DNA of 64,000 nucleotides from Cliona cf. orientalis (lineage: Eukaryota; Porifera; Demospongiae; Clionaida; Clionaidae), in NCBI GenBank assembly GCA_963930775.1, contig OZ005691.1, forward strand, positions 11,033,000 to 11,096,999, given 5' to 3'. Position 1 is the stretch's first letter. Each line of letters starts with the position of its first letter. A model generated the notes under the pieces. That model searched no databases. It saw only the letters and a list, made by a program, of their open reading frames with translations, and was not told the DNA's origin. The position numbers and the translations under genes were made by a program. This document shows, one piece after another, positions 34,183-64,000 of this stretch.

Positions 34183-34460
34183 ACCTAGCGATTGATTCCA
34201 ATTTCTGTCCTGCTCCTTTTGATATACCGAAGTACCTATTCATCAACAGAACCGGTATAAATATCATTATGGGAAATACCGCGATATGAACCCTAAACTT
34301 ACCAAGCTGCTCTGTTCAAATAGCTTAGCTTACGATGACGCAGCAATTATTGGGTCGAAGGTTAAAATGCAATGAGTATACGAGCCCCACCCACTCTGAC
34401 CGGACGACGATCTTTACCAAAGTGGTGATCTATGGCCAAACATGACTGCAGTGCCAACAA
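34183..34460 (-). promoter_or_regulatory. Conserved NLR upstream region
   Basis: The stretch upstream of receptor 1 recurs upstream of receptor 2 (38580-38840), receptor 3 (42949-43210) and receptor 4 (49160-49420). Shared blocks are CAATTTCTGTCCTGCTCC, GCAGCAATTATTGGGTC, AAGGTTAAAATGCAA, GAGCCCCACCCACTC and GACGATCTTTACCAAAG. GAGTGGGTGGGGCTC resembles a CACCC/Sp1-type box. Duplicated promoters imply the genes are expressed under similar control. Confidence 0.65.
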
Positions 34461-35768: not shown

Positions 35769-38579
35769 TTAATTGCCTGGGTCTCTTGCACGGTGTTTAG
35801 GGTCAGACAAAAGGTAACGCATAGATTTCACTTCTTTTTCCCATAGTCTGTTTTTACATCCAATGGTGAGATTTGGAAGAGCAAAAATGTCTCGTTTGAA
35901 ATTAAACTGATCAACTAAGGAGCGATGTTCGTCTAGAACCTCATCAGTTGATAGCACGACAAGATGGGTATGCCAAAACCACTCCACTAAAGTTTGGAGA
36001 AACTGAGTCAATCCGCTAGCGGTATAGCAGTTCCAACCAATGTCGAGGGCTTGTAACCTACTTCCTCCTACTACTGCAACAGCTAGTAGTTCTAGGTGAA
36101 GATCGTTAATGCCACAGCCATCCAGGAAGAGCCGCTGTAAGTTCTTATGGTACTTCAATGCTTCGCAAAAAAGCAGCATTACTTGTGGATTAGTAAATAC
36201 TCCAATACATCCGCATAAATTTAGAGTGGACAAATATTGCCCTGAATAGAGGAGTAACACTAAATGGTGTGCAATGGGGACAGGCACCCATATATCGTTA
36301 ATGGACAGGTAAGAAAGTGGGTTAGGATTTAGCCCTTCAATGATGTATTTCAAAGCAAGCTGTATGTCCTCTAACATGAAGCCACTAACTATAAGTCCGA
36401 ATACACCTGATACTGACATTAACACTGCTCGAATAGATTGAAGTGCTTGTTTCGTGAGAAAGTTGAGGTCTAACTTTAAACTCAGGTTTCGTCGATTTCG
36501 GATTGGTTTGCATAGCTCTTGAGAGAGTGCCTTAATTTCTTTATCCTTAAGCATACAGTGGGATAAATTAAGAACACAATAAGCAGAGCTCTGGATTAAT
36601 TCACAGGCATGTCTGGCAAAGTAGCCAATTGACAGGCAATCTGTAGGGTCAAGGATCATGTATGATAAAGCAAGCTCAATATGGGGATTCCTATTATGCT
36701 TATTGAAATCAGACGCTAAAACTACATCATCATCAACCATTTGTGGAGAAAATAAAATAATACGATTCATTAATTCCACACTTTTGGATTCATAAATACA
36801 ATTCATTAATGCCAAGATAAGTCTCCTCATATCATCTTCTGGCTTGTAAGAATCAGCTGATTGTAATTTGGCAACCACGGCATTTATATGCATCGGATTC
36901 TCCATCACGCGAAGAAGGAGATCACAAATTTCATTTGGAACACTAGTGAATCGGGTGAGACCAGCATAAAATGATAAAACGGAATTTAGGGGGTTTTGTT
37001 TGTACACTTTTTTGAAAGCAGCAATTTGATCACTTTCTTTCAACTGCGTGATATGAAAAGCAGCTAGAAATTCCTGCAAAGACAAATGCGGAAAAGCATA
37101 CAGATTTGTGGCACCAGATGCTGTAAGTTTGTGATGGATATTAAGGAATCCAAATGTATCATGTGATGTTGGGTTGATTCCTTTTGCCTCAAGCACAGTT
37201 TGACTAACTAAACTATGCCTGTCTATGATACACTGATATGCTAGCTGTGATATTTTGCGGAGTGATTGATATGTATCACTAGGAAGATCTTTCGAAAGAT
37301 CACTGATACAACTAACCTGATGTGGAGTACGGGACTTCATGTGCCGAAGAAGAAAATTGCGCACCAACGGATCAAACAAGCCTGTGCGGGTGGTGGGCAG
37401 ATTTTCTTGCAGGATATCAAAGAGAAAAACTAGTATCACAGCATGTAAGGGGAGATAGCACAAACTAACAAGCTCAGGCTTCATTTCTAGTGCCTCCAAT
37501 AACCTAGCTCGTTTGCTAGTTTCTTGAACGGTTGCTTCAATAAATTCATCAAGTGATCTAAACCCCTTAACGATCACTTTCCCAGTGATACAACCAGTCA
37601 GATAAAAGAAAATTTCTGGATTGGGTCGCGAAGTAAGTAGAATACTAGCACTAGGTAACATCGACCTTCTTCCAGTACCTTGTACAAAATGGGATAAGAA
37701 TGAACCCCTAACAAAAAGCTGTGGTGCTTCATCACATCCATCGAACAATAAACAGACTCCTTTGCCACGTACATGTGCAATTGCACCAGCTATAGCATCG
37801 CGCTTATCCCTATCAAGCTGAGGGATCAAATCAGCCAGCTTTTCAGCAAAGCGAACTTCCGTATCGCTGCAGGAAACATGAATAAGGAGCCTGATATCTG
37901 TAAAAAGCCTACCAGCAGCCCATTCCTTGCAAGCATACCAACAAAGTGTCGTTTTTCCAGACCCAGCTAAGCCTTCAACTAACACTACTTTCCGTGGTGC
38001 CTTCTGATTACCGGCATTGAAAATAGATTTTAGAGGCAGTGGCTTTAGTGAATGAACCGACATGGGGGCATTCATCAGAACGGTCAAAGAAACAGGAGCA
38101 TCATAAAGATCCAAATCGACATAACCAGCATAGCTAGTTAACAACGGCCACTGAAGTGATGAAGGATGGGCGACACCGGAGTAACAGTCACACAGATAAT
38201 GATGGAAACTATTGATCATTACTGCTTGCTCGTCGTCATACTTTTTTCCTGTACTACTAACAAGAATCTTCTTCAAAGCTTCGGCTGTGCCAGCTCTACC
38301 TTGTGAACTAAGGATGCAAATAAGCCTACGATACGTAGCTTTACTGCCGTTGCTCTCTTTCCACTTTCGTAGCGCTTCACGTCGCTGGAGCTTTGGGCTG
38401 TTTGGATTGCTATCGACTACATGTATGTCCTTTTCTTCAACTTCGCTCAGATCTAGGTAAGGTGCAAGCTCACGCCACTCAGTTATGTGTGAGGCAATGT
38501 CAGATAAGTGGATATCGCTGACCGGGGAATCAAGAAGTGGTCTTGGCACACCCTCACAAATTTCTTTGGCATTTGACAT
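35769..38579 (-). CDS. NLR receptor 2: death domain-NACHT-LRR
   Basis: A single exon of 936 residues with the same order as receptor 1: death fold (1-101, with two extra residues HV after EEKDI), Walker A GLAGSGKTT, Walker B GVCLLFDGCDEA, ILLTSRP, HLSLQEFLAA and LRRs. Up to about residue 510 it is nearly identical to receptor 1. Beyond that it is clearly more divergent (for example FTSVPNEICDLLLRVMENP and LDLNFLTKQALQSIRAV), while receptors 1 and 3 stay alike there. The likely cause is recombination or gene conversion between copies plus divergence of the ligand-facing half. Intact open frame. Confidence 0.95.
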   Translation of the reverse strand: MSNAKEICEGVPRPLLDSPVSDIHLSDIASHITEWRELAPYLDLSEVEEKDIHVVDSNPNSPKLQRREALRKWKESNGSKATYRRLICILSSQGRAGTAEALKKILVSSTGKKYDDEQAVMINSFHHYLCDCYSGVAHPSSLQWPLLTSYAGYVDLDLYDAPVSLTVLMNAPMSVHSLKPLPLKSIFNAGNQKAPRKVVLVEGLAGSGKTTLCWYACKEWAAGRLFTDIRLLIHVSCSDTEVRFAEKLADLIPQLDRDKRDAIAGAIAHVRGKGVCLLFDGCDEAPQLFVRGSFLSHFVQGTGRRSMLPSASILLTSRPNPEIFFYLTGCITGKVIVKGFRSLDEFIEATVQETSKRARLLEALEMKPELVSLCYLPLHAVILVFLFDILQENLPTTRTGLFDPLVRNFLLRHMKSRTPHQVSCISDLSKDLPSDTYQSLRKISQLAYQCIIDRHSLVSQTVLEAKGINPTSHDTFGFLNIHHKLTASGATNLYAFPHLSLQEFLAAFHITQLKESDQIAAFKKVYKQNPLNSVLSFYAGLTRFTSVPNEICDLLLRVMENPMHINAVVAKLQSADSYKPEDDMRRLILALMNCIYESKSVELMNRIILFSPQMVDDDVVLASDFNKHNRNPHIELALSYMILDPTDCLSIGYFARHACELIQSSAYCVLNLSHCMLKDKEIKALSQELCKPIRNRRNLSLKLDLNFLTKQALQSIRAVLMSVSGVFGLIVSGFMLEDIQLALKYIIEGLNPNPLSYLSINDIWVPVPIAHHLVLLLYSGQYLSTLNLCGCIGVFTNPQVMLLFCEALKYHKNLQRLFLDGCGINDLHLELLAVAVVGGSRLQALDIGWNCYTASGLTQFLQTLVEWFWHTHLVVLSTDEVLDEHRSLVDQFNFKRDIFALPNLTIGCKNRLWEKEVKSMRYLLSDPKHRARDPGN

Positions 38580-39510
38580 ACCTGGCGATTGAATTCAATT
38601 TCTGTCCTGATCCTTTTGATACACCGAAGTACCTATTCAGCAACAGAACAGGTATATTATTATGGAAAATACTGCGATATGGAGCCTAAAACTTACCAAG
38701 CTGCTCTGCTTAGCTTAGCTTAGTCAGCCAACGATGACGCAGCAATTATTGGGTCAAAGGTTAAAATGCAATGCGTATACGAGCCCCACCCACTCTGACC
38801 GGACGACGATCTTTACCAAAGTGGTGATCTATGACTGCCAACAAGCAGACGTTCTTTTGCACATGTAGCATTGGCACTACAGCTGCCTCGGCATTGCAAC
38901 AAAATTAATAATAATGATAATTTAGTAGGTGTGTCACGCATGAAAATTCAGTAGGTTTATCTTCTACTACCATGTACACTTGCATGTGCAAACTCCAAAT
39001 AGCCATGAAAAAAAAAATATTTAGTTTCTCAGGCCCGCCCGCATCATTTTTTTTTTTTTTTTTAATTAAGTGGGTGTGGTAATTTAATTATCGTCGTGCT
39101 TACCGCTCGATCTCTTTGGCTGGCTGTGCTTGAGCATCAGCCTTGATACTCTCTAGTAGGCATCTGATTTCTCAAAATCGCTTCTCTGATGGCTATGCTA
39201 TAACAAATTATAGATTAACTAAGACTTGCAAATTCCAGTTACTTTCAGCCAAACTTCAGCTCGAGGTAGGCCGTATATGGGCGTGGTTAAGGGTGGGCCA
39301 CGCCCCAAAAAATAAAAATAAAATAAAAAGCCGCCCGCCCGCATCATTTTTTGGCTGAAAAAGCCTGAGAAACTAAGAATTTTCTTTTCTTGGCCTTATC
39401 ACTTCTAATATCTTTCTGTGTAACGCTCCCCCCCCCCCACCAATCATGAATTAAAATCCCAGTTATTAGCTATGCTGAATGATCATAATTTATTTATTTG
39501 CCTCCTGGCA

Positions 39511-40116: not shown

Positions 40117-42948
40117 CTAGTGTAAATTTCTGGAATTAAGCTCAGGGTTTGCCCTTAGATAACGCATAGAATCGCTATCTTTTTCCCACTGATCACCTTT
40201 ATATTCAATATGAAGTTCATAGTCAAAGGAAGGATGCACTCGTTTACGTACTGCATTGAATACTTGAACCCAAAAACGATGTTCATCCGTGACATCGTCA
40301 GTTTCTAGTATCAGCAGTGTGCAGTTATATGCCTTATTAGCCAATGTCCGGAGAAATTGTGTTAAACCAGCTGGAGTATAGGTATTCCACCAAATATCTA
40401 GAATTTGAATTACACATCCTTCAGAATCTGTTAGAGCAGGAGCAAGCAATTGCAACAAATGATCATCAATGTTACATCCATCGAGAAATAGTCGTGTCAG
40501 TTTACTGTACTTTAGACCTTCACAGAAAAGTGACATTGCTCTCGGATTGGCAAACAGTTTTTTACTGCCACACAAATTAAGAGACGTCAGACTTCGGCTA
40601 GAACAAAGAAGCAATACCAAGTGGTGTACAATGGGAGAAGCATGTCTGGATTCAAGATCTATATCGTTTATGCCCAGGTAGGTCAGTGAATTGGGTCTTA
40701 CAAGCCCCTCAATGATGTACTTCATTGCAAGTTTTATATCCTCAATCATAAACCCACTAACTGTCAAAGTTGATAAACCTGATTCTGACCTTAGCACTGT
40801 GCCAATTAAGTGAAGGGATTCGTTTGATAACCAAACATATGAAAGTTTCACAGATAGGTTGCGGGTTCGTATTGGTCTACAAAGCTCTTGAGAGAGAGCC
40901 TTAATTTCTCTCACTTTCAGTAGGCTGCCGGATAAGTCAAGGAAGATATGGGAATTTTCATCAATTATCTCACAGGCACGCCTTACAAAGTAGCTGATAG
41001 ATAAGCAATCAGTAGGGTACAAATCCATGTATAAGAATGGAATCTCTACACGAAGATTCTGACTATTAATACAATGACCAATGACAGAAGCCGGCATCAC
41101 ATTGACAATGTCTGGTACCACTTCTGGAGAAAAAGATATATTCTGCTGTATCAACTCTTCCTTTTGAGATTCATAAATGCAATTCATTAAACCTAAAAGA
41201 CACCTTCTTTTATCATCCATTGGATTGTATGTATCAGCTGATTGCAATTTCTCCACTACAGCATTCAAATTAAATTGATCCCGCATCACTTCGAACAGAA
41301 GGCCAACAATACGCTTTGGAACTTTCAGCTTAGTAAGACCGGCATAAAATGACAAAACAGAGCTCAGAGGGTTTTGCTTGTACACTTGCTTGAAAGTAGC
41401 AATTTGATCACTTTCTTTCAATTGCGTGATATGAAAAGCAGCTAGAAATTCCTGCAAAGATAAATGTGGAAAAGCATACAGATTTGTGGCACCAGATGCT
41501 GTAAATCTGTGATAGACATTAAGAAATCCAAACGTATCATGTGATGTTGGGTTGATTCCTTTTGACTCAAGCACAGTTTGACTAACTAAACTATCCCTGT
41601 CTACAATACACTGATATGCTAGCTGTGCTATTTTGCGGAGTGATTGATAAGTATCACTAGGAAGATCTTTCGAAAGATCATTGATACAACTAATTTGATG
41701 TGGAGTACGGGACTTCATGTGCCGAAGAAGAAAATTTCGCACCAATGGATCAAACAAGCCTGTGCGAGTGCTGGGCAAATCTTCTTGGAGAACATCAAAG
41801 AGAAAAACTAGTATTACAGCATGTAAGGGGAGATAGCACAAACTAATAAGCTCAGGCTTCATTTCTAATGCCTCCAATAACTTAACTCGCTTACTAGTTT
41901 CTTGAACAGTTGCTTCAATAAATTTGTTAAGAGATCTGAACCCCTTGACAATCACTTTCCCAGTGATACAACCAGTGAGATAAAAGAAGATTTCCAGACT
42001 GGGTCGCGAAGTAAGTAGAATACTAGCACTAGGTAACATCGATCTTTTTCCAGTACCTTGTATAAAACGGGATAAGAATGAACCCCTAATAAAAAGTTGT
42101 GGTGCTTCATCACATCCATCCAGCAAGAAACAAACTCCTTTGCCACGTGCTTGTGCAATTGCACCAGCTACAGCATCACGCCTATCCCTATCGGGATGAG
42201 GGATCAAATCAGCCAGCTTTGTAGCTGAGCGAACTTCCGCATCACAACAGGAAACATGAATGAGGAGCCTGATATCCGTAAAAAGCTTATCAGCAGCCCA
42301 TTCCTTGCAAGTATACCAACAAAGTGTCGTTTTTCCGGACCCAGCTAAGCCTTCAACTAACACTACTTTCCGTGGTGCCTTCTGATTACCAGCATTGAAA
42401 ACGGATTTTAGAGGCAGTGGCTTTAGTGAATGAATTGACGTGGGAGCATTCATCAGACTAGTCAATGAAATAGGAGCATCATAAAGATCCAAATCGACAT
42501 AACCAGCATAGCTAGTTAACAACGGCCACTGAAGTGATGAAGGATGGGGGATATCTGAGTAACAATCACACAGATAATGATGGAAACTATCAATTAAGAC
42601 TGCTTGTTCGTCATTCTTTTTTCCTATCCTGCTAACAAGAATCTTCTTCAAAGCTTCAGCTGTGCCAACTCTACCTTGTGAACAAAGGATGCAAATAAGC
42701 CTACGATACGTAGCTTTACTGCCGTTGCTCTCTTTCCACTTTCGCAGTGCTTCACGTCGCTGGAGCTTTGGGCGGTTTGGGTAGCTATCGACTATGTCCT
42801 TTTCTTCAGCCTCACTAAGATCTAGGTAAGGCGCCAGCTCTTGCCAGTTGGTAATGTGTGATGTAATGTCGGATAAGTGGGCATCGGTGACCGGGGAATC
42901 AAGAAGAGACCTCTGTACACCCTCACAAATTTCTTTGGCATTTGACAT
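40117..42948 (-). CDS. NLR receptor 3: death domain-NACHT-LRR
   Basis: A single exon of 943 residues. Death fold at about 1-100 (YLDLSEAEEKDIVDSYPN), Walker A GLAGSGKTT, Walker B GVCFLLDGCDEA, ILLTSRP, HLSLQEFLAA and C-terminal LRRs (LNLCGSKKLFANPRAMSLFC). The LRR half is closer to receptor 1 than to receptor 2. The death fold has the YPNRPKLQRREALRK and GVQRSLLDSPV variants that it shares with receptor 4 and not with 1 or 2. The patchwork suggests exchange between copies. Intact. Confidence 0.95.
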   Translation of the reverse strand: MSNAKEICEGVQRSLLDSPVTDAHLSDITSHITNWQELAPYLDLSEAEEKDIVDSYPNRPKLQRREALRKWKESNGSKATYRRLICILCSQGRVGTAEALKKILVSRIGKKNDEQAVLIDSFHHYLCDCYSDIPHPSSLQWPLLTSYAGYVDLDLYDAPISLTSLMNAPTSIHSLKPLPLKSVFNAGNQKAPRKVVLVEGLAGSGKTTLCWYTCKEWAADKLFTDIRLLIHVSCCDAEVRSATKLADLIPHPDRDRRDAVAGAIAQARGKGVCFLLDGCDEAPQLFIRGSFLSRFIQGTGKRSMLPSASILLTSRPSLEIFFYLTGCITGKVIVKGFRSLNKFIEATVQETSKRVKLLEALEMKPELISLCYLPLHAVILVFLFDVLQEDLPSTRTGLFDPLVRNFLLRHMKSRTPHQISCINDLSKDLPSDTYQSLRKIAQLAYQCIVDRDSLVSQTVLESKGINPTSHDTFGFLNVYHRFTASGATNLYAFPHLSLQEFLAAFHITQLKESDQIATFKQVYKQNPLSSVLSFYAGLTKLKVPKRIVGLLFEVMRDQFNLNAVVEKLQSADTYNPMDDKRRCLLGLMNCIYESQKEELIQQNISFSPEVVPDIVNVMPASVIGHCINSQNLRVEIPFLYMDLYPTDCLSISYFVRRACEIIDENSHIFLDLSGSLLKVREIKALSQELCRPIRTRNLSVKLSYVWLSNESLHLIGTVLRSESGLSTLTVSGFMIEDIKLAMKYIIEGLVRPNSLTYLGINDIDLESRHASPIVHHLVLLLCSSRSLTSLNLCGSKKLFANPRAMSLFCEGLKYSKLTRLFLDGCNIDDHLLQLLAPALTDSEGCVIQILDIWWNTYTPAGLTQFLRTLANKAYNCTLLILETDDVTDEHRFWVQVFNAVRKRVHPSFDYELHIEYKGDQWEKDSDSMRYLRANPELNSRNLH

Positions 42949-43377
42949 ACCTGGCGATTGATTTCAATTTCTGTCCTGCTCCTTTTAAAATGCCGAGGTA
43001 CCTATTCAGCAGTAGAATTGATAGCTATTATGGAAAATACGGCGACGATCTAGCGTAAAAACTTACCTATATACCTAGCTTAGCTTTAGCCATAAGCTTA
43101 GTCAGCAAACGATGACGCAGCAATTATTGGGTCAAAGGTTAAGATGCAACGCCTACGAGCCCCACCCACTCTGACCGGACGACGATCTTTACCAAAGCGG
43201 TGATTTATGGCCAACATGACTGCCAACACCCACACTAAAACGTGACGTTGTTTTGTAACATTGGCGCTACAATTCCCTCAGCATTGCGACAAAATTAGTA
43301 ATAATTTAGTAGGTATAAACTGAAACATAATTGATACATGGACAAGAATCCATTTCAAAATCATGATGGTTATTGTT

Positions 43378-46369: not shown

Positions 46370-49159
46370 TTAGTGATGTTGAGTTCTTACAAGAAATTCT
46401 GGATTGAATATCAAGAAAAATTTCTTGCTTCTTTCTTCATCTCTTGAGCAAAGAGTATCTTTACATCCGATAACAAGATCATCCAACAATGGAAGGAAGT
46501 GTTTCCTGCGGGCATTGAATTCTTTAACTAATGAACGATGGTCATCATTCAGGACAGTATTAGTTGACAGTACAGTCAGGCCTGACCACATACACCTCCA
46601 ATTCAAAATCCTAAGAAATTCCGTTAAACCTTCAGCAGTGTAGGGATTCCAGCCAATGTCAAGAACACGTAATAAACACCCACCAACAAGAACAGTAGCT
46701 AAGTACGTCAGTGCCTCATCGTTAATTCCACAGCCGTCCAATAGCAGTCGATTGATTGTGGTATGCCTAAGTGCTGCACAGAACATTGCCACTGCTTTTG
46801 GATTTTTGAACACGTTAGCACTTCCAGCAAGATTAACCATAGTCAAGCAGTGACCACTAACTAATAGTAACACCAAATGATGTAAGACAGGTACAGCTAC
46901 ATTCAAGTCATTTATTGATATATAGTGACAACGGTGATAAGAAACAACACCCTCAATGATGTATTTAAGAGCAAGGTGCATATCATCTGTTAAAGATCCA
47001 TCAAATATCAGCCCACCAATAGCCGATCTTGAGTTGAAAATTATCTTAATTGAATGAAGGGCTTCAGTGGTTAATTGAATGCCAGAAATATTGAGGAAAA
47101 CGTTTGGTTTTTGTGCCCATTTGCGCAACTCGAAAGATAATGCTCTGATTTCTGGAGCCTCTATGAGACTATATGATAGCCTTAAATGGATAACCTCTGA
47201 ACCCAGCATCTGTGCACATGCAAGCCGAACGAAATATGCAATTGACAAACAGTCAGTGGGATAAAGAACCATGAAGGTCAAAGGAAGCTCTACATGTGAA
47301 AGATTCCTTCGAGTCGCTGAATTGGCCGAAGATAGCACTATTGTGTCTTGTAGCACGTGTCTTGGGGTAAGTGCAATGCAGCTAATCAGTGACTTTTTCT
47401 TGGTTTCATATAGGCAGTTCATAAGAGCTAAAACCTGGCGTCTAACATCGCATGCTGGATCAAATGTCCGTTGCAATTCTTGAACTACGCTAGAAAAATC
47501 AAGTTGCTTCTTTAGCACCTGAAGTAGGAATGTACAAGCCTTTTCAGACACTAATTTTGTTAGTCCAGCATAGAAAATCAAGATAGGACTAACTGGATTC
47601 TGATTATAGATCAGTTGAAAAGCTGAAAACTGATCCTGCTCACTTAGCTGTGTGATGTAGAAAGCTGCCAAGAACTCTTGCAGTGACAAGTGTGAAAATT
47701 TATAACACTTTGCAAGACCATACATAGTAACTTGCTGGTTAGACTGAAGAAAGCCAAAGGTATCGTGCAATATTGGATCGACTTCAGCCTGCTTAAGCAT
47801 ACTCTGTGTAAAGACAATATCTCTACTGATAAGAGACTGATAAGCTAATTTAGAAACTTTATACAATGCTGAATAGATATCAGCAGGGAGATCAGCAGAG
47901 AGGTCATGTATCCTAATAGCATCAATCTGGTATTCTGATCGTGCTTGCATATGCCGAATGAGAAAATTGCACACTAGGGGGTGGAATAGACCTGTGCGCG
48001 TAGTGGGCAAATTTGCTCCTAGGAAATCAAAGATATGAACGAATATCACAGCATGGAGGGGGAGATGGCACAGGCTATACAGCTCAGGTTTCATTTCCAG
48101 CGACTGAAACAACTGAGCTCTTTTCTTGCTGTCATCCGAAAAAACTCTCTTGATGTAATCATCAAGTGATTTGAACCCCTTGATAAGGATACGCCCAGTG
48201 GCGCACTTCATGAGATCAGATGGAATTCCTGGACGTGATGTCAACAAGAGAGTAGCAAAAGGAAGCATGGACCTTCTATCAGTGCCAGCTATAAACTGAA
48301 AGAAAAACGAGCTCCGGGAGAGTTGCTTCGCTTCGTCGCATGCATCAAGCAAAAAGCATACCCCCTTACCACGTGCATCAGCGATTGCCTTAGCAATGGA
48401 CCCTCTCATATCCTCACTAGGGTCAGGGATCAAATCCTCTAGTTTCCTAGCAGAATGGATGCCGATATCACTAAATGAGATGTGTATAATCAATCTCACA
48501 TCTTGAAACATATTGCCAGCAGCCCACTCTTTGCGAATATACCAGCACAATGTGGATTTTCCAACCCCTGCTATACCTTCGACAAATATAACCTTTCGCT
48601 TGGCAGTTTGATCACCAGCATCAAAGATACGTCCTATACAGAGTGGCCTAAGAGATTTATCATCCACAGTACGGCTACTCAGTAAAGGGGCATCAAATAG
48701 GTCTATTTCAACAAATTCTTGGTGTGCTAAGAATGGCCATTGTAGAAGGGAAGGATGTCTAAGGTTGGTATAGCAATCACAAAGGTATTTCCGGAAATTC
48801 TCCATCAAAGCCTGCGTATCATCTTGTGAAGTGCCTAGAGGCTGCACAAGAAGCTCTTTTAAGCTTTGTGCTGTACTTGCTCTACCCTGAGAACAGAGGA
48901 TGCAAATAAGCTTACGATACGTAGCTTTGTTGCCATTGCTCTCTTTCCACTTTCGTAGTGCTTCACGTCGCTGGAGCTTTGGGCGGTTTGGGTAGCTATC
49001 GACTATGTCCTTTTCTTCAACCTCACTAAGATCTAGGTAAGGTGCCAGTTCTTGCCAGTAGGTAATGTGTGAGGCAATATCAGATAAGTGGATATCACTG
49101 ACCGGGGAATCAAGAAGAGACCTCTGTACACCCTCACAAATTTCTTTGGCATTTGACAT
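46370..49159 (-). CDS. NLR receptor 4: death domain-NACHT-LRR, diverged body
   Basis: A single exon of 929 residues with a death fold at 1-95, Walker A GIAGVGKST, Walker B GVCFLLDACDEA, LLLTSRP, HLSLQEFLAAFYI and LRRs (VNLAGSANVFKNPKAVAMFC, RLLLDGCGINDEALTYLA). The death fold and the upstream region are almost identical to receptor 3, whereas from about residue 95 on only roughly half of residues match. The NACHT core differs at key-loop neighbours (AGVGKST instead of AGSGKTT) but keeps the catalytic Lys and Thr/Ser. It lacks an L30 copy in front, since the TPR gene and its element occupy that place. It may respond to a different ligand but feed into the same death-fold partner. Confidence 0.95.
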   Translation of the reverse strand: MSNAKEICEGVQRSLLDSPVSDIHLSDIASHITYWQELAPYLDLSEVEEKDIVDSYPNRPKLQRREALRKWKESNGNKATYRKLICILCSQGRASTAQSLKELLVQPLGTSQDDTQALMENFRKYLCDCYTNLRHPSLLQWPFLAHQEFVEIDLFDAPLLSSRTVDDKSLRPLCIGRIFDAGDQTAKRKVIFVEGIAGVGKSTLCWYIRKEWAAGNMFQDVRLIIHISFSDIGIHSARKLEDLIPDPSEDMRGSIAKAIADARGKGVCFLLDACDEAKQLSRSSFFFQFIAGTDRRSMLPFATLLLTSRPGIPSDLMKCATGRILIKGFKSLDDYIKRVFSDDSKKRAQLFQSLEMKPELYSLCHLPLHAVIFVHIFDFLGANLPTTRTGLFHPLVCNFLIRHMQARSEYQIDAIRIHDLSADLPADIYSALYKVSKLAYQSLISRDIVFTQSMLKQAEVDPILHDTFGFLQSNQQVTMYGLAKCYKFSHLSLQEFLAAFYITQLSEQDQFSAFQLIYNQNPVSPILIFYAGLTKLVSEKACTFLLQVLKKQLDFSSVVQELQRTFDPACDVRRQVLALMNCLYETKKKSLISCIALTPRHVLQDTIVLSSANSATRRNLSHVELPLTFMVLYPTDCLSIAYFVRLACAQMLGSEVIHLRLSYSLIEAPEIRALSFELRKWAQKPNVFLNISGIQLTTEALHSIKIIFNSRSAIGGLIFDGSLTDDMHLALKYIIEGVVSYHRCHYISINDLNVAVPVLHHLVLLLVSGHCLTMVNLAGSANVFKNPKAVAMFCAALRHTTINRLLLDGCGINDEALTYLATVLVGGCLLRVLDIGWNPYTAEGLTEFLRILNWRCMWSGLTVLSTNTVLNDDHRSLVKEFNARRKHFLPLLDDLVIGCKDTLCSRDEERSKKFFLIFNPEFLVRTQHH

Positions 49160-49641
49160 ACCTAGTGATTGATTTCAATTTCTATCCTGCTCCTTTTGAT
49201 AGCTAATATACGAAAGTACCTATTTAGTAGTAGAATAGGTATAAATATTATGGAAAATACCACAACATGGAGCTATGATCTAGCCTAAAACTTACCAAGC
49301 TGCACTTAGTCAGCAAACGATGACACAGCAATTACTGGGTCAAAGGTTAAGATGCAACGCGTACGAGCCCCACCCACTCCGACTGGATGACGATCTTTAC
49401 CAAAGCAATGATTTACTCTATCCTAGTATTGGGTAGGCACCCAGACTAAAACATGTCGTTTTTGTTATATTAGCACCGAAATAGCCTCAATCAGTAATAT
49501 TGATAATTAATTTAAATGTATTAAAGCAACAAATCTGATCACAGGGATTTCTATGGTACAAAATGAGAATAATTGGTATAAAGTTTGATTAAAGTGTATG
49601 AGGGGTCTGTCTTGCAATTAATCATCGAAGAATGGAATTTA
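49160..49641. other. Receptor 4 upstream region and oxidase 3' flank
   Basis: The first about 260 bases are the conserved NLR upstream blocks. The rest is AT-rich without features. Confidence 0.6.
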
Positions 49642-55860: not shown

Positions 55861-58800
55861 ATGGAGTCGTTAAACGAGGGTGGAAGTCGTGAAACTCAAA
55901 GTTGCACACCAGCAGACGTCTACTCTGCCCTCGTGGAAGCTAGATTAAACTGTAGCATTCGCGTATTCGGCTCTCAACTCGGACTAGACCCTCCCGATCT
56001 CGATGAAATTCAAGGCGACTCCGTTGACCCGCGACCGAAATTACTGCTAGTGCTGATAAAGTGCGCTGAAAGGGCCAGTACGCGTGACGATGAGCTGACA
56101 TGGAGCCGGATAGTTGATGTCTTAAGAAAACCAGCGCTGAAAGAGTATCGAATAGCTGGTGAATTAGAACAACAGTACCTGGAGAGGGGGAGGCAATTAT
56201 CGCTTTCCAGTTCACTTACTCTCTCGCCTCTCTCAGACTCTGCGTCTTCAACGGACTATGTTTGGCCTTCCCCAGCTCATAGCATGGAAATTGGTCAGCT
56301 AATACTTTTAATTAAGGGGCAACTATAATTATAAGTATAGTATACCTAAGGTTAAGGATGTGTGTCATAAAATTTAATATTAATTTTGTATTTTTCACGG
56401 CTGTTAAATTTTTGTGCATCGATGCATAGATGCTAATAGCTATGCTTTATAAGAAGAGGTTAGCCGGCTTGTATTGATACTCAATGATCTTTACCGTAAT
56501 CACTCATAATATTATTTTGTGCGCATGTACGTTGTCATCATCATTAAATTTAATTTTAATATCTGCAGACGAGCAATTTTCAATACCAGTTGCTGTGAAT
56601 ATGATACACGTTAACATAGAATGGAAGGAGCTGGGAAAAGAGCTTGGATTGTCTGCTTTTGATATCGAAGTCATTAATGGATACAACAGAGAGGAACACC
56701 GTCAGCGATTGATTGAGAAGTGGTATAATCTATCTGTAGACCAGGAATTTTCTCGAGAAAATCTTCGAAGCGCTATGAGGAAGGTATTCAGTAGAAGAGA
56801 ATCGAACGATTCTGAGAGGAGTATTCCATCAGCACCATCTTCACCCACAAGTACGATAATAATATTAGTGATTATGTGGCTTAGTACTAAATTTAATTAC
56901 GGAGGGGATGTTAGCTAGCAAGTTCATGCAATTATTGTACTGTAGTTACGATTTAAAGGATCAGATCGAGTAGGGGTACGTTAAGGGTCAGTTTTTGATT
57001 ATACATACATAGCTCATAATTAAAAGTGCCAACAGTTTTTATGTATGCGTGTGTGTATTGTTTCTTCATCTAAGCAGACATCGAAGCTCAACTTAAGGAT
57101 TTTAACAAACGGTTCGGACGACTGCAACGTGCAGCTCGGAAAGAATTGGAACTCAAACACCATACTGTGGAGCTGGTTAGAGAAGAGTTGATGACATTGC
57201 CACGACAAATTATGACGGAAAATTACAGCTTTATTAAGAATGCCACCAAGCCTAATGGAGTCTCTAAATTCACAGATCTAACGAATCTTTTTCAGCATCT
57301 ACATCTGCATTGTTGGAGTTTCTTTGAGTATAAGGTGCTTGAAGTCCTTATCGATAACAACTGTAGCGACGAACTAAGAGAAAGAATGGATAGCTATGTC
57401 AGTGATATTCAGACATTCAAGGAAAGAACATTAATCTCTGATTTTATTAAGCATGCAAGACACAGCTCCTATGGTCTACAGATGAAGAAAAAAAACGACA
57501 CCACAGACATTTAAGAATTTGACTACAAAACATAATATTGATGCAGACACTCACACACTTGCCGAGTTAGACAAATTTCGTTTGGAGACAGGCAATCGTG
57601 TCTGCTTGAGTCGCACATTGTCCGAATGTGCGTTTCAGTTGTACACGATAAAGTATGGAAGCATTATTGTCGAATGGATCTTTCCAGAAGAGCTTGCTGA
57701 TGATTTAATGAACTTTATCGAGAGTGACGATGGCAGGAAACTACTCGAGGAGTACTTTATCGAGAAAGTAATGATTGATGGGAAAACAGTACCCACAGTA
57801 AGTACTCCAATGTCACTATGATAGTTCAAATTTCGGGGTAGTCACTAAAAAGTGGTAGAGTGGTGTAACGATGCCCTATCAGCTCTTGATGTGTTTTTAA
57901 ACCACAAAAACCACACACATCCTGTGATATGATATTTAACCATGCACTGCATCATTCTTCAACTTTTTTTGTACATAAACTTTCATGTCCATATAAGATG
58001 TCATACATGATAGAATGCACAAATAGCACAATTACTGGCTAATACAAGTGAGCACCCATAAAAATGGTTATAAACAAGGGATATATAGCTATATACAATA
58101 CATGAGTAATTATGTACATTTCATGACTTGCTTCCCAGATATTCTTGTTCACTGCCATGAAAGCAGAGGACTGGGAAAGAATGAAAGAGCTGCTAGAGAA
58201 AGATTCTGACCTTGATGTCAATTCAATAGATGAGGTAACTTGAATACATGCTCAAATAATATATTTAAGGTCATACTTGCATGTACAATGTCATGTGTCA
58301 TGCATGATGTACCAAAAGATTAGATAATCAGATAGTAGTACATAGAGTTGGTCATGAGTACACAAAATTGTGGTGGTTTAAGCGTAACATACTAACATCC
58401 TGGAATTATCCACCACATGGGTAGATTATCACATAGCTACCTCATTCAAATGCCATAAAAATTTATTAATACTAGAAATGTTAACAATAATTCACCTCTG
58501 TGTGCACCTTTATAAGATAGATTCACAAAAATTTAATAATAGTGAAGCGAGCCCAGCTGCTGGTAAATTTATGCAACAGCTGTTGATTTAGTTACCGGCC
58601 TATGACAATGTACATTCTTATCTTAGACTACCTACCCCCTTAACACAGGAAACAGATCAAGTGTTCTTATTGAACACAGCTCAGAATGGAAAGATAGAGA
58701 TAGTTGAATTGTTGATAGGCAGAGGAGCTGATGTAGGTATCACTGACAAGGTATGTGAAAACTCAATGGAATCTCTCTAACAAGAATGTTCATGCAGGCT

Positions 58801-61294
58801 TGAAACATCCTTTAATCAGGATGTGACACCACCAGATTCTATTCCACAACAAATATTATTATGTTAATCTCCATGCAACCTATAATATAGGCCCCCATAC
58901 ACCACATTCTATTCCATAACAAAATTATATTAATCTCCATGCAACCTATAGCTATTAGGCCCCCATAATAGAGGGATATTACTCAGTCTAAATTGTGACC
59001 TTTTTTTTAATCGATTAGCGTCAGAGGACTGCATTGTTACTTGCAAGTCATGAGGGCCACCTCAACATTGTTAAACTACTTCTTAACAAGGATGCAAGAC
59101 AAAACCATCAAGATCAAGTAAGCTTAAGGGAGGAGTGAGAATGACTTGTCTCTGCTACTCTACTAGTGTGTTCAAAATGAACAACTATTATTGTACAACT
59201 GTAGTTTGGTTGGAGTCCCCTGATGTTGGCTAGCTACAGAGGTAATGTTGAGGTCGTGGAACTGTTGCTGGACTACGGCAGCGATGTCAACCTGACCACT
59301 CAGGTAGATAATTGATTTGGGCAAACACCGTAGCTACATAACTCAAAACCAATCATCTGATCTTATCATTTCTCGTGACATTACGCATAGGTAGGCTCAG
59401 AACATCATGTTAATTCCCCCTCCCCCAACTCCCCCTCTCTCTCTCTCCCTCCCTTCCTCTCTCTCTCTCTCTCTCCCTCTCTCTCTTTCTCTCCATAAAT
59501 TTATTAGTCTGCCATGGATACCAAATTTGGGATTACGATTATTGTGTGGTATGATTTTGTGTGTATATGGGTTGCCATTGGGTGGAGGAATTAAGCACTG
59601 CTTTCAAGTAATAGTTTCTATTCTGAACTACAGCAAGGTTGGACAGCTCTCCAGCGTTTGTGTCTCTACAACCAGACAAGGTATCCGTCAGCTAAATACA
59701 AGGTTTCTGAAAGGCGTGGTGAGATTGCTAAGCTATTGATCGACCATGGAACTGATATAAGGAAGATTGATAGTGTAGGTCATTGTATAAGTTAATAATA
59801 ATAATGTAATAATATCATAAAGAGCAACAATTAGGAAAAGAAAGATCTTTTCAATTTTGAATGAGCTACGACATTTTGTACACCTGTAGCAAGGACGAAC
59901 AGCCTTGATCGCTGCTAGTGACAGTGGATTTGCAGATATCGTGAAGTTATTACTGGAAAAAATCTCTGAATTTCCCGACGAAGAAAGACAGAAATACCTT
60001 GACCATGGGAATAATGTGAGTACTAAGAATAATAATTATGACACACTCAAATTTCACCCATCACACATGCACATAATATACTTTACTGCTACACAAAGAG
60101 CTAGCCCCCACTAGCAGGGACTATACCTATAATCTAAGATATAATATTTTATAATTTTGTGACTCTAACATCTTTCCATACCTACATGCCATGGAAATGT
60201 GATGTTTCTATACAGTACAATACCTTAGATATGCAACCGATCAAAATTACGTTCATTTTATACAGTTTTCATGGACGGCACTCATGTCAGCGTCGGAGAA
60301 AGGACACCCCGACGTTGTCAAGATTCTTATCGAGGCTGGAGCTTCACGCAGTCTCACCAAAAAAAAGGTACAAAAATTGACAATGTCATCACTTATTGCC
60401 CGTTTAAACAATCACTACCACTATAATATCAAAGCATAGAGATTGTATGGTATAGATGAGGCCTGGCTGTAATGCTCATGATTTGTGAATATGAGCAGCT
60501 GCAAAGAAGTCAAAGATTCCCTATAGTGTTGCCTGGGGATGAGACTATATATACTTACTACTAGTATATTATGTCATTGTTTTTAGGACGAGGTATCAGC
60601 ACTGCACATTGCCGTACAAAATGGTCACGTTGAGGTAGTCGAAGTTCTCACTCATAAAATGGACGAAGATGACCTAAATGCTCGTGATAACGTGAGACCA
60701 CTATCAACTAACTATGGTGAATCTGGTAGCTACTTTATGTTATTTTTGTAGTACGGTATGACCCCACTGATTTTGGCCACCAAGAAGAAGAGTGAGCAAC
60801 TGCTCAATGTGTTGATCCACGCTGGAGTTGATGTGGACGCTAAAGATGTACATTCAAAATTTAAATAGCTATGTTCCAACTGTAATCATGATACTCTTCA
60901 TTTACATAATGCAGAAAGACGATGAGATGACAGCACTCATGTTTGCAGTGAAAGTCGGTTCTCTTGATGTGGTGAAATTGCTCGTGGAAAAGAGTAACGC
61001 TGATTTATTTGCCGTAAATTCTGTAAGTACTACTGAATGAGGCTAATCCTTATTCCTGTTATTACAATCATGTCTTTCTCTGTGTACTCTTAAAACTGTG
61101 TTCATGCAGAGAAATGAAACAGTACTTGAGATGGCGAAGAATAGTTCAAAAGAGATTGAAGACTATTTATCTGAAAAGTGCAAAGTATGATCAATTATTA
61201 AAAACAATGCCATGCTCTAAGTTTATCTGTATTTTTATGTATCTTGCAGCAAGCTGAAGAAGAACAGCGAAGAAAAAAGGCTACAACAGCATAG
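55861..61294 (+). CDS. Death-fold/ankyrin repeat protein 1, with a frame break
   Basis: Exons: 55861-56293, 56569-56850, 57078-57797, 58139-58234, 58649-58750, 59019-59117, 59205-59303, 59634-59774, 59890-60015, 60266-60367, 60587-60691, 60752-60847, 60915-61022, 61110-61184 and 61250-61294, about 875 residues. Two death-fold domains come first (GSQLGLDPPDLDEI; WKELGKELGLSAFDIEVI), then an unrecognised central region of about 200 residues, then some ten ankyrin repeats, mostly one per phase-0 exon (for example TALLLASHEGHLNIVKLLL). A short charged tail ends the protein. The third exon is broken: a run of eight A at 57488-57495 puts the two halves in different frames, and the downstream frame fits the rest of the protein. 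A base error, polymorphism or recoding are all possible. The donor of exon 1 (gtcagc) is weak, so that border is less sure. Role: probably a cytosolic signalling adaptor; partner unknown. Confidence 0.78.
57488..57495 (+). other. A8 run at the frame break
   Basis: Upstream the frame reads KARHSSYGLQMKK-type sequence and meets a stop 20 bases later. Downstream, reading with one base skipped gives an uninterrupted 100-residue continuation (HTLAELDKFRLETGNR). Homopolymer runs are frequent places for base-count errors and also for ribosomal slippage. Confidence 0.85.
58810..58975 (+). repeat. Two-copy tandem repeat of about 75 bases
   Basis: The unit ATTCTATTCCAYAACAAA, then TTAATCTCCATGCAACCTATA, then GGCCCCCATA occurs twice in the intron before the exon at 59019. 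Confidence 0.75.
59418..59492 (+). repeat. CT-rich microsatellite in an ankyrin-gene intron
   Basis: CCCCCTCCCCC followed by CT repeats over about 75 bases. Low complexity. Confidence 0.9.
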
Positions 61295-61369
61295 CATAAC
61301 TATTGACATTGTTAGTAGACTGCTGATACTTTGTCATAATAATCAAGATGGGTGGAGCTAAGCTGATAC

Positions 61370-61381
61370 TGCGCACGCGCA
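61370..61381. promoter_or_regulatory. NRF1-like site before the second death-fold/ankyrin gene
   Basis: TGCGCACGCGCA lies between the ATG at 61348 and the in-frame ATG at 61423. By analogy with the paralogue, whose site lies 70 bases before its ATG, this favours 61423 as the true start. Confidence 0.5.
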
Positions 61382-61422
61382 AGAGTTCAGGTCACGATCG
61401 AGACGAAGATAGCGCGGCTAAC

Positions 61423-64000
61423 ATGGCATCCCCTCCTTCTCCACCAGCAGTCCGATCGATTGGAATTTTAACTCCTACGATCGAGTTGTCGTTCAAAAAT
61501 ATCCCTATTAATATCTCATCGAGTCTGCTGAGTAGAGGGCTGATTTCTGGACACGTTCATGAGAAAATACTCCTTGTTTCCCTCACAGAGACAGAAAAGG
61601 CCGCCATCTTGGTTCAAGCAGTGAAAAACACGATAAAAAGAGACCCAGAAAAGTTTGAAGATTTTCTTAAAGTTCTTTCGGAGCATAATGATACAATATC
61701 CGTGGAAACGGATCTGCGTTCAACCTGTCAAGGTTAGTCAGTAACCGTTATCGAATGTCTAGCTTCTTGTCAGCTGTCTACTTTACTTCCTCTTCAATTA
61801 TAGAAATCATTGCGAAAGAGAGTCAGACAGCACAAAATTCGAGCTCAAAAGATTCTTGTGCCGAGCCTACACCTAGTAAGCCCATATAGATATTGCTAAT
61901 TCCAAATCAGTTTCATGAAAGTATCATGCATTACACAGAACGACCTAAGCTGAGTGAACCACGGGGACGAATTCAAAGCTGTAAGTTCAAGCAGCCCAAT
62001 CATCAATAATTATTACAGCACACACTTGCATTAATTATGATAGCTCTCTCAGATGAACCTGACGTCTGTGAAGCAGCTGAAGTCCCCCATAGAAGATCAT
62101 CACTTAAAATTTCAAATCCTGTGATTGAAAACTATTCTGAGTTGGGGGATGATGATAAGGAGAACATCGCAAATCAAATTCAGAATTTGGCAGGTGTCAT
62201 TGACAAAAAGTTCCTGAAACTTGGAAATCTGGTTTTGCAGTCACTGGACGCTAGGAAAATTGAGCCAAAATTGCTCGTTAATACTTTGACCCAGTGTGAA
62301 GTTTACTCCACAGAGACGGAACGCAAAGAGAAGCTCTTCCAATTGCATAGCAGAGACCTAGCGGAGGCTAAGGATATTTACAGAATCTTTAGGATAATTT
62401 CTCCGTATTATTCCTGGTTCAATTATGAACTTTTCAAGAAAATAGTCAATACTCATGGCTCCGATGAAGATAAAAAGGATATGGAGCAGTATTGTCAAGA
62501 TTTCTCTGAGTACTGTCAGAGAATTCCATGCGTTGAATTTCAAGAGAATCGTTCAAAATCGTCACACAAAACAAAGATCAAGTTCAAACTGGATCTCGAC
62601 AAAAAATCGCTAAATCTCTACGAAATTAAGTGTATCCAGCGAAATATTGCGAGGATTTTGAAATTGCAATCAAGCGTGCTTGTCCTGAGTAGTATAGAGG
62701 ATGGCTGTATGGCGCTCGTGTTTCTGGTACCATCACATATTGCGGCACAATTGATAGCGATAGCAGTGGACGAGAAAGCTATACTATGCCAAGAAATAAA
62801 AATGATATCTGTCGACCAAGAGCAAGACCATCCTTATCAAGGAGTAAGTACTAAATTTTGATACCTTTAATATTAGCTACACTGATCTGTATTGATTTTT
62901 ACAGGAAAATGGACACAATCACCAAGAATATTTTGAATCTGCTAAACAGGGAGACTTAAAGAGAGTCCAAGCGTTGATCGAAGGAGGAATTGAAATCGAC
63001 ACTGTGGATGAGGTATCTCAATCTGGGTCACATGGCAGGGATATGCACACATTCATTACTGTGATAGATTCGATGACGTATTGTGATGGGTTTAGATATA
63101 ATATGAGGTATCCCAATCTAGTATAATCATTATGTGTGCATTTGAGTAATAATTGTGATAGTGTGCTTTTCTCAGAAAAACTATACTGCCTTACTCCATG
63201 CAAGTCATGAAGGCCACATCAATATTGTAACATTTCTTCTAGAAAAGGGCGCTAACAGCAACTGGCAAGCTGATGTAAGTGTATTATGGCAATGATGAGT
63301 AATCAATCATGACAATGATATTGTTTGTGTAGCAGTTGATCATGAGGTAGTGGTAAATAAATCTTTGTCATAATTGTGGTCAGACTGGAGGGGGGTGTAT
63401 ATATACATCCATCCATGGCATACCTTTTAAGATGGGATAATCTACCATAGGTTTGCATGAGCAGATATTATATGTAAAGGGGAACATCTGTTCAAAATTG
63501 TCAACAATTTGTGTGACTTTCCTGACATTCCGATCCATCGAAGAGACATTGTTTATGTCAACAGGCATACCAATCCCCGGCAGTTAGTCAACATCCAGGC
63601 TAGAACCAACCATGCAGTTTTATAATTCTTTCTTCCCAAAAACCATTGCTCTCTGGAACTCTCTTCCCTCATCACTTCTGTCATCTGTCTCCCTCAATTC
63701 TTTTAAATCAGGCCTCAGTCAGCATTTTAATTTTTAGCTCATTCTTATTTGCACTCACTCCCTCCATAGGTTACATGCTAGTTTTAGCTATCTCCAGCTA
63801 ATCATGTTAGCCACTGTTCTGTTTTTGAGCAGAAATTAATAAATAAAAGGGGGTATTATATTCCTCAAAACATTATGACACAAAAATTAATGTAGGCTAT
63901 GAATGTATGATAATAATTATTACTAGGACGGCTGGACAGCCTTGATACTGGCGAGCTATAGAGGCCACGTCAAAATCATTGAGTTGTTGCTGCAATCTAA
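61423..64000 (+). CDS. CARD/death-fold ankyrin repeat protein 2, 3' partial
   Basis: Exons: 61423-61732, 61804-61875, 61939-61980, 62053-62843, 62905-63012, 63176-63274 and 63927 to beyond the window. I start at ATG 61423 (MASPPSPP); an upstream in-frame ATG at 61348 is possible. The first exon encodes a helical death-fold, CARD-like domain (LLSRGLISGHVHEKILLV, TEKAAILVQAVKNTIK, FEDFLKVLSEHN). Exon 4 (263 codons) carries the central region shared with the neighbour (YYSWFNYELFKKIV, MEQYCQDFSEYCQRI, GCMALVFLVPSHIAAQL). Ankyrin repeats follow (YTALLHASHEGHINIVTFLL, GWTALILASYRGHVKIIELL). The two genes are tandem paralogues with the same exon plan: small phase-1 exons, one large exon, then phase-0 ankyrin exons. 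The window end cuts it within an ankyrin repeat. Confidence 0.85.
63560..63860 (+). mobile_element. LINE 3' end inserted in an ankyrin-gene intron
   Basis: At 63630-63737 a frame reads SFFPKTIALWNSLPSSLLSS and continues to SLNSFKSGLSQHFNF and a stop, the typical end of a non-LTR retrotransposon reverse transcriptase (W-N-S/N-L-P, then S-F-K). A further piece reading QARTNHAV lies just upstream in a shifted frame. The 3' untranslated part ends in AATAAATAAAA. Truncated and dead. The same tail is at 14695-14815 on minus. Confidence 0.85.

Follow-up and report, generated by a model that had tools for sequence, protein, structure and literature searches.

The window analyzed here, a 64,000-nucleotide stretch of the sponge Cliona cf. 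orientalis (contig OZ005691.1, positions 11,033,000 to 11,096,999), contains near its end two genes, hereafter gene 1 and gene 2, which share a diverged module located between death folds and ankyrin repeats. A first-pass annotation proposed that this module, ~200 residues long, was a candidate undescribed domain. We arrived at a different reading, which we consider very likely: the module is composed of two domains, a helical domain of ~125 residues followed by a TRADD-N domain of ~70-75 residues, and the genes that carry it are lineage-expanded immune adaptors. The features of both genes are given below in window coordinates, with part one and part two denoting the halves of the module and HMM a hidden Markov model.

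Gene 1
56613..56783, + strand: Death domain (Pfam Death gives 17.5 bits and E 0.0047; the match falls short of the 22.6-bit curated cut-off)
57077..57460, + strand: module part one, helical, perhaps death-effector-like (family profile with the gene-1 copy excluded; coordinates as given by the last round)
57488..57495, + strand: run of eight A, with a change of frame
57489..57722, + strand: module part two, assigned to TRADD-N (family profile with the gene-1 copy excluded; HMM of TRADD-N members confirmed by Pfam)
59890..61019, + strand: ankyrin repeats in four frames, 59890-59958, 60272-60352, 60596-60691 and 60924-61019 (Pfam Ank)

Gene 2
61350..61734, + strand: N-terminal exon-like frame, CARD-like by eye (sequence reading only)
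62139..62525, + strand: module part one, helical, perhaps death-effector-like (part-one HMM of 21 other members, E 1.2e-20)
62586..62789, + strand: module part two, assigned to TRADD-N (part-two HMM of 21 Pfam-confirmed TRADD-N members, E 9.1e-6)
63182..63238, + strand: ankyrin-like motif after the module (pattern scan only)

The gene-1 module is therefore flanked by a Death domain below the Pfam cut-off and by ankyrin repeats that exceed theirs in four frames, while the gene-2 module lies between the CARD-like frame and the ankyrin motif. The gene-1 Death domain scored 2.7e-13 with a Death profile built from genome loci, a training set that included the gene-1 copy itself. Of the six frames scanned with Pfam Ank, four were above the curated cut-off, all in gene 1 (E 2.8e-4 to 1.1e-6), and the gene-1 frame 58592-58777 was slightly under it. 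In gene 2, the Pfam scan gave no death-fold match in frame 61350-61734 and neither an ankyrin nor any other match in frame 62896-63123. Translation places both parts of the gene-2 module in the single frame 62010-62858 and splits the gene-1 module between frames 57074-57511 (part one) and 57486-57818 (part two). As read by eye, the corresponding exons run from ~57078 to 57797, with AG ahead of 57078 and GTAAGT at 57798, and from ~62053 to 62843, with AG ahead of 62053 and GTAAGT at 62844. These limits agree with the outer coordinates of the first-pass annotation, 57078 and 62843.

Homology and size of the family

When compared pairwise, the gene-1 and gene-2 modules showed slight similarity in part one only (tblastn E 5e-4 to 0.002; BLASTP 4e-6 in a single comparison), in agreement with their earlier description as diverged. 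We built a family profile from the gene-2 copy as seed and further copies in the genome, leaving out the gene-1 copy and setting Z = 100,000. Its first round recovered both halves of gene 1 in the same order, part one with an E value of 2e-20 and part two with 2.9e-6. Because a held-out profile finds both gene-1 halves in the same order, homology is far above chance, and at the level of sequence profiles the two window copies are shown to be homologous. The proposal of a shared, two-part module, in the same order between death folds and ankyrins in both genes, was thus upheld. A joint alignment of the three window frames put gene-1 part two in the wrong place and was discarded.

Searching the source genome (217 Mb) with the gene-2 frame returned at least 144 match rows at E ≤10 and at least 140 at E ≤1e-3, itself included; these are lower bounds, with 137 of 307 candidates scored, and some rows are second pieces of one copy. 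The gene-1 halves gave 141 rows (part one) and 72 rows (part two) at E ≤1. From the genome loci we cut 85 domains covering at least 150 profile positions, a set in which gene 2 is counted twice and loci L044, L047 and L049 are repeats of a place. Greedy thinning of this set left 27 domains at a 50% identity limit and 43 at 75%. Of 86 close pairs, which include repeats, the 40 with the greatest similarity had a median ratio of nonsynonymous to synonymous substitution rates (dN/dS) of 0.22, and we therefore conclude that the module is kept by selection. Judged by these counts and ratios, the family is shown to be large and under purifying selection. In viral and in bacterial and archaeal collections, from which near-window records were possibly left out, 42 and 36 pattern matches were obtained and none was confirmed.

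The arrangement seen in the window recurs elsewhere in the genome. Among 79 genome loci, 34 have a Death domain upstream of the module, 17 have an ankyrin motif downstream of it, and 12 have both. Three of these loci are repeats of a place and one is gene 2, and the flanks extend ~1.5 kb, making the counts lower bounds. As a control, the ankyrin motif was sought on the opposite strand and on the far side of the module, where it occurred in none of the 79.

Part two belongs to the TRADD-N family

Pfam TRADD-like_N (PF20694) matched 13 of 35 part-two members, with a best E of 1.3e-8, as well as 2 of 15 members in another alignment, and was over its cut-off in three of ten whole frames. Run against the genome, the same model gave 46 matches, 24 of them over the curated cut-off (one only with its frame neighbours). 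Of the 46, 38 overlap relatives of the window protein, as do 22 of the 24. One of four majority-consensus sequences was also matched by TRADD-like_N. The family passes the Pfam model even where single sequences of this genome fall short, and it is because single sequences fall short that the domain was missed in the first pass.

To reach the window copies we built an HMM from 21 members whose loci exceed the cut-off and lie outside the window, and ran it on all 1102 window frames of at least 30 residues plus their reversals. The gene-2 copy was the best of all window frames, at the E value listed above. Over iterations with both window copies kept out, the gene-1 copy went to 0.059, 3.8e-7 and 3.8e-11, and no reversed frame did better than 0.11 in any of the rounds. 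A significant match to a named family, the outcome that the first pass had named as refuting its proposal, thus exists for part two at the level of the family, and it is carried to the window copies by profile.

The residues conserved in part two also fit this assignment. TRADD-N has an RRM-like α+β fold, for which PMC8195603 names the PDB entry 1F3V. According to section 8 of that paper (Kaur et al. 2021), the superfamily is recognized by its β2-β3 turn, which pairs a tiny residue with Ser or, in some cases, Cys, and in TRADD the turn Ser contacts TRAF2. All 35 part-two members have Ser (19) or Cys (16) in this turn, and the residue ahead of it is G in 25, N in 7, H in 2 and S in 1; the turn reads GC in gene 2 and GS in gene 1. 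The I-x-x-G core and following proline pointed out in the first pass were borne out, with the core corresponding to the β2-β3 turn and the P after the strand present in 33 of 35 members. Together these results show, as far as profiles and conserved residues can, that part two belongs to TRADD-N.

Several observations weigh against the reading of the module as a helical domain plus TRADD-N in immune adaptors. Neither window copy alone matches Pfam TRADD-like_N, and the link runs via their relatives. For gene 1, the first step of the HMM search gave 0.61 versus 0.44 for a reversed frame, and significance came only with iteration. A second model, NCOA6_TRADD-N (PF13820), matched 2 of 35 part-two members, with a best E of 0.02, and had no match in the genome, where its controls were likewise silent. 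Against the Protein Data Bank (PDB), the part-two profile had no match, and no solved TRADD chain was among its hits. Finally, the switch mechanism considered below is, for the window genes, a proposal only.

The helical half and rival readings of the module

Part one spans ~125 residues and looks helical from its sequence pattern. Its conservation supports most of the motif described in the first pass: among 36 members, the tyrosine of N-Y is present in 31 and that of M-x-x-Y in 34, and an F near the start is found in 33. The W that opened the proposed motif is not general, as its column holds 25 F, 8 Y, 1 W, 1 T and 1 C, and the gene-1 W lies two places earlier, in relative position, than the gene-2 W. 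No Pfam family recurred among the 36 members. Against Death domains from the genome loci, part one showed no similarity, in a weak test that also fails to connect the death-effector domain (DED) with Death. Enkurin was considered for part one and rejected: with a 15-member alignment, four PDB chains matched over a long helical stretch (E 9.8e-4 to 4e-3), and they did not recur with the 36-member part one. The latter gave 17 PDB chains, the best being Gemin5 (0.0085) and Vipp1/PspA (0.011). In our judgement, the Enkurin, Gemin5 and Vipp1/PspA matches are all long-helix look-alikes.

We give slightly better than even chances to the reading of part one as a diverged death-effector-like domain, with the pair corresponding to the DED-TRADD-N dyad printed by Kaur et al. 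(PMC8195603). Pfam DED matched one of the 36 members (0.028), and it matched three diverged frames in one register, directly ahead of TRADD-N: L087 at 4.5e-4, L088 at 0.0022 and L020 at 0.054. None of these reaches the DED cut-off of 35.9 bits, the best being L087 with 20.8 bits and L088 with 18.6 bits, and L087 and L088 were picked because the genome-wide DED search had touched those places. In L087, Pfam reads the stretch directly ahead of TRADD-N as a DED; however, the family profile covers just the end of part one there (positions 109-196), so that part one may be replaced in L087 by an ordinary DED, and this locus does not necessarily connect the two. Profile comparisons were divided. When the part-one profile was aligned with 30 genome DED matches, 25 of which are over the Pfam cut-off, the score was reached by 0 of 60 shuffles in global mode with either of two trims, and by 0, 0 and 1 of 80 shuffles in local mode with three trims. 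With 10 DEDs there was no support, since no fewer than 10 of 60 shuffles scored as high, and the HH-suite probability with the 30 DEDs was 1-10%. This type of test has low power, as DED and Death, which are true relatives, were not found by each other in it. The contrary reading makes part one a new helical domain with no relation to the six-helix death fold, one that accompanies TRADD-N either as a spacer or to offer an interaction surface of its own; it remains a serious contender that we place somewhat short of even. It draws on the lack of a recurrent Pfam family, on the 10-DED and HH-suite results and on the four majority-consensus sequences, none of which Pfam matched to DED. It also draws on L086 (contig C10, ~848 kb), where a single frame holds two ordinary DEDs and then the beginning of part one, the remainder lying in the next frame; part one is therefore distinct from those DEDs. 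The single-register DED matches and the shuffle results with 30 DEDs speak against it. A broader formulation, that part one is a helical adaptor domain not yet described, whether a branch of the death fold or a new fold, occurring mostly with TRADD-N in a pair also multiplied as a multivalent scaffold, is one we offer tentatively.

The remaining alternatives concern the module as a whole and the integrity of the gene-1 copy. A single undescribed domain of ~200 residues, as the first pass had it, would accord with the two parts being mostly found together: of 99 module matches, which include repeats and some shortened by frame or locus ends, 81 cover both parts, 7 stop before profile position 150 and 5 start after position 100. 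It would also accord with the absence of any Pfam match to the module in single window frames. We rejected this reading as highly improbable, because part two alone is TRADD-N; moreover, TRADD-N occurs elsewhere without part one (PMC8195603). The frame change between the two parts of the gene-1 copy could mean that this copy is a decaying remnant, which we consider unlikely. The change coincides with the run of eight A, and homopolymer A runs are a common place for assembly errors. Both gene-1 halves are still recognizable, candidate splice sites can be seen on visual inspection, and L052, the closest gene-1 paralogue, has both halves in a single 275-residue frame. Decay of gene 1 would in any case be irrelevant to the family, which is under purifying selection.

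Neighbourhood, proposed mechanism and known systems

Upstream of the two genes, on the opposite strand, lie four long, single frames matched by Pfam Death and NACHT over their cut-offs:

31360-34236, - strand: Death-NACHT frame
35772-38591, - strand: Death-NACHT frame
40120-42960, - strand: Death-NACHT frame
46373-49171, - strand: Death-NACHT frame

Each also has a weaker NLRC4_HD2 match. From these domain matches we read the four frames as NLR-type genes, which places the module pair in an innate-immune neighbourhood. Death folds are numerous in this genome: Pfam Death gave 1292 first-look candidates, of which 150 were scored and all 150 were over the cut-off, and at E ≤0.1 there were 75 DED and 84 CARD matches. 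The N-terminal halves of L016, L018 and L019, like window frame 61350-61734, look CARD-like by eye and carry no Pfam name; they may represent another diverged death fold.

The module genes most likely encode intracellular immune adaptors. In the proposed mechanism, the ankyrin repeats would be the sensing part, binding a ligand or partner, while TRADD-N would contact its neighbours via the conserved Ser/Cys face and either keep them inactive or bridge them. On a signal, the TRADD-N interface would be reconfigured with the Ser as a switch, and the released death folds could then recruit partners by like-with-like binding. The switch is a hypothesis put forward in section 12 of PMC8195603 by Kaur et al. 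(2021), who locate TRADD-N where a constant part meets a variable one and have it interact with both neighbours.

TRADD-N typically lies between two other globular parts, usually as a single copy, and gene 1 follows this pattern; for gene 2 the placement is judged by eye and by motif. Loci on contig C14 (L071, L073, L075 and L079; ~4.8-5.9 and 7.7-7.9 Mb) depart from the single-copy tendency described in section 12 of PMC8195603. Their uninterrupted frames reach 3702 residues, and module copies are arranged head to tail with a period of roughly 660-700 bp. Six match rows fall in a 3059-residue frame (4810193-4814050) and five in a 2127-residue frame (5012262-5015660).

Vertebrate TRADD resembles the window genes in joining TRADD-N to a death fold within an adaptor, and differs in that its Death domain is C-terminal (PMC8195603) and in that the part-two profile did not link to solved TRADD chains. 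The DED-TRADD-N dyads of bivalves, amphioxus and cnidarians likewise have a helical adaptor immediately ahead of TRADD-N, whereas the window part one is only weakly DED-like; the two are likened by the description given in PMC8195603. The closest parallel is in another sponge, Amphimedon, for which section 10 of PMC8195603 reports 357 NCOA6-clade TRADD-N proteins. Most of their architectural types have one to three death-like domains and then TRADD-N, with ankyrin among the commonest C-termini. The order of death-like domain, TRADD-N and ankyrin, the large expansion and the Ser/Cys turn are all shared with the Cliona family, and the arrangement was already in print in 2021. Two differences should be noted: the NCOA6 model matches the window family just weakly, and the Amphimedon text, in the portion used here, does not name a separate helical part one, though this could have been classed there among the death-like domains. 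Based on domain order and profile matches, we assign the window genes, as new members, to a family that had been described before from a sponge, with only the helical half lacking a named family. A stretch of two genes can thereby be given a named signalling domain, within a very large adaptor family that lies here near NLR-type genes.

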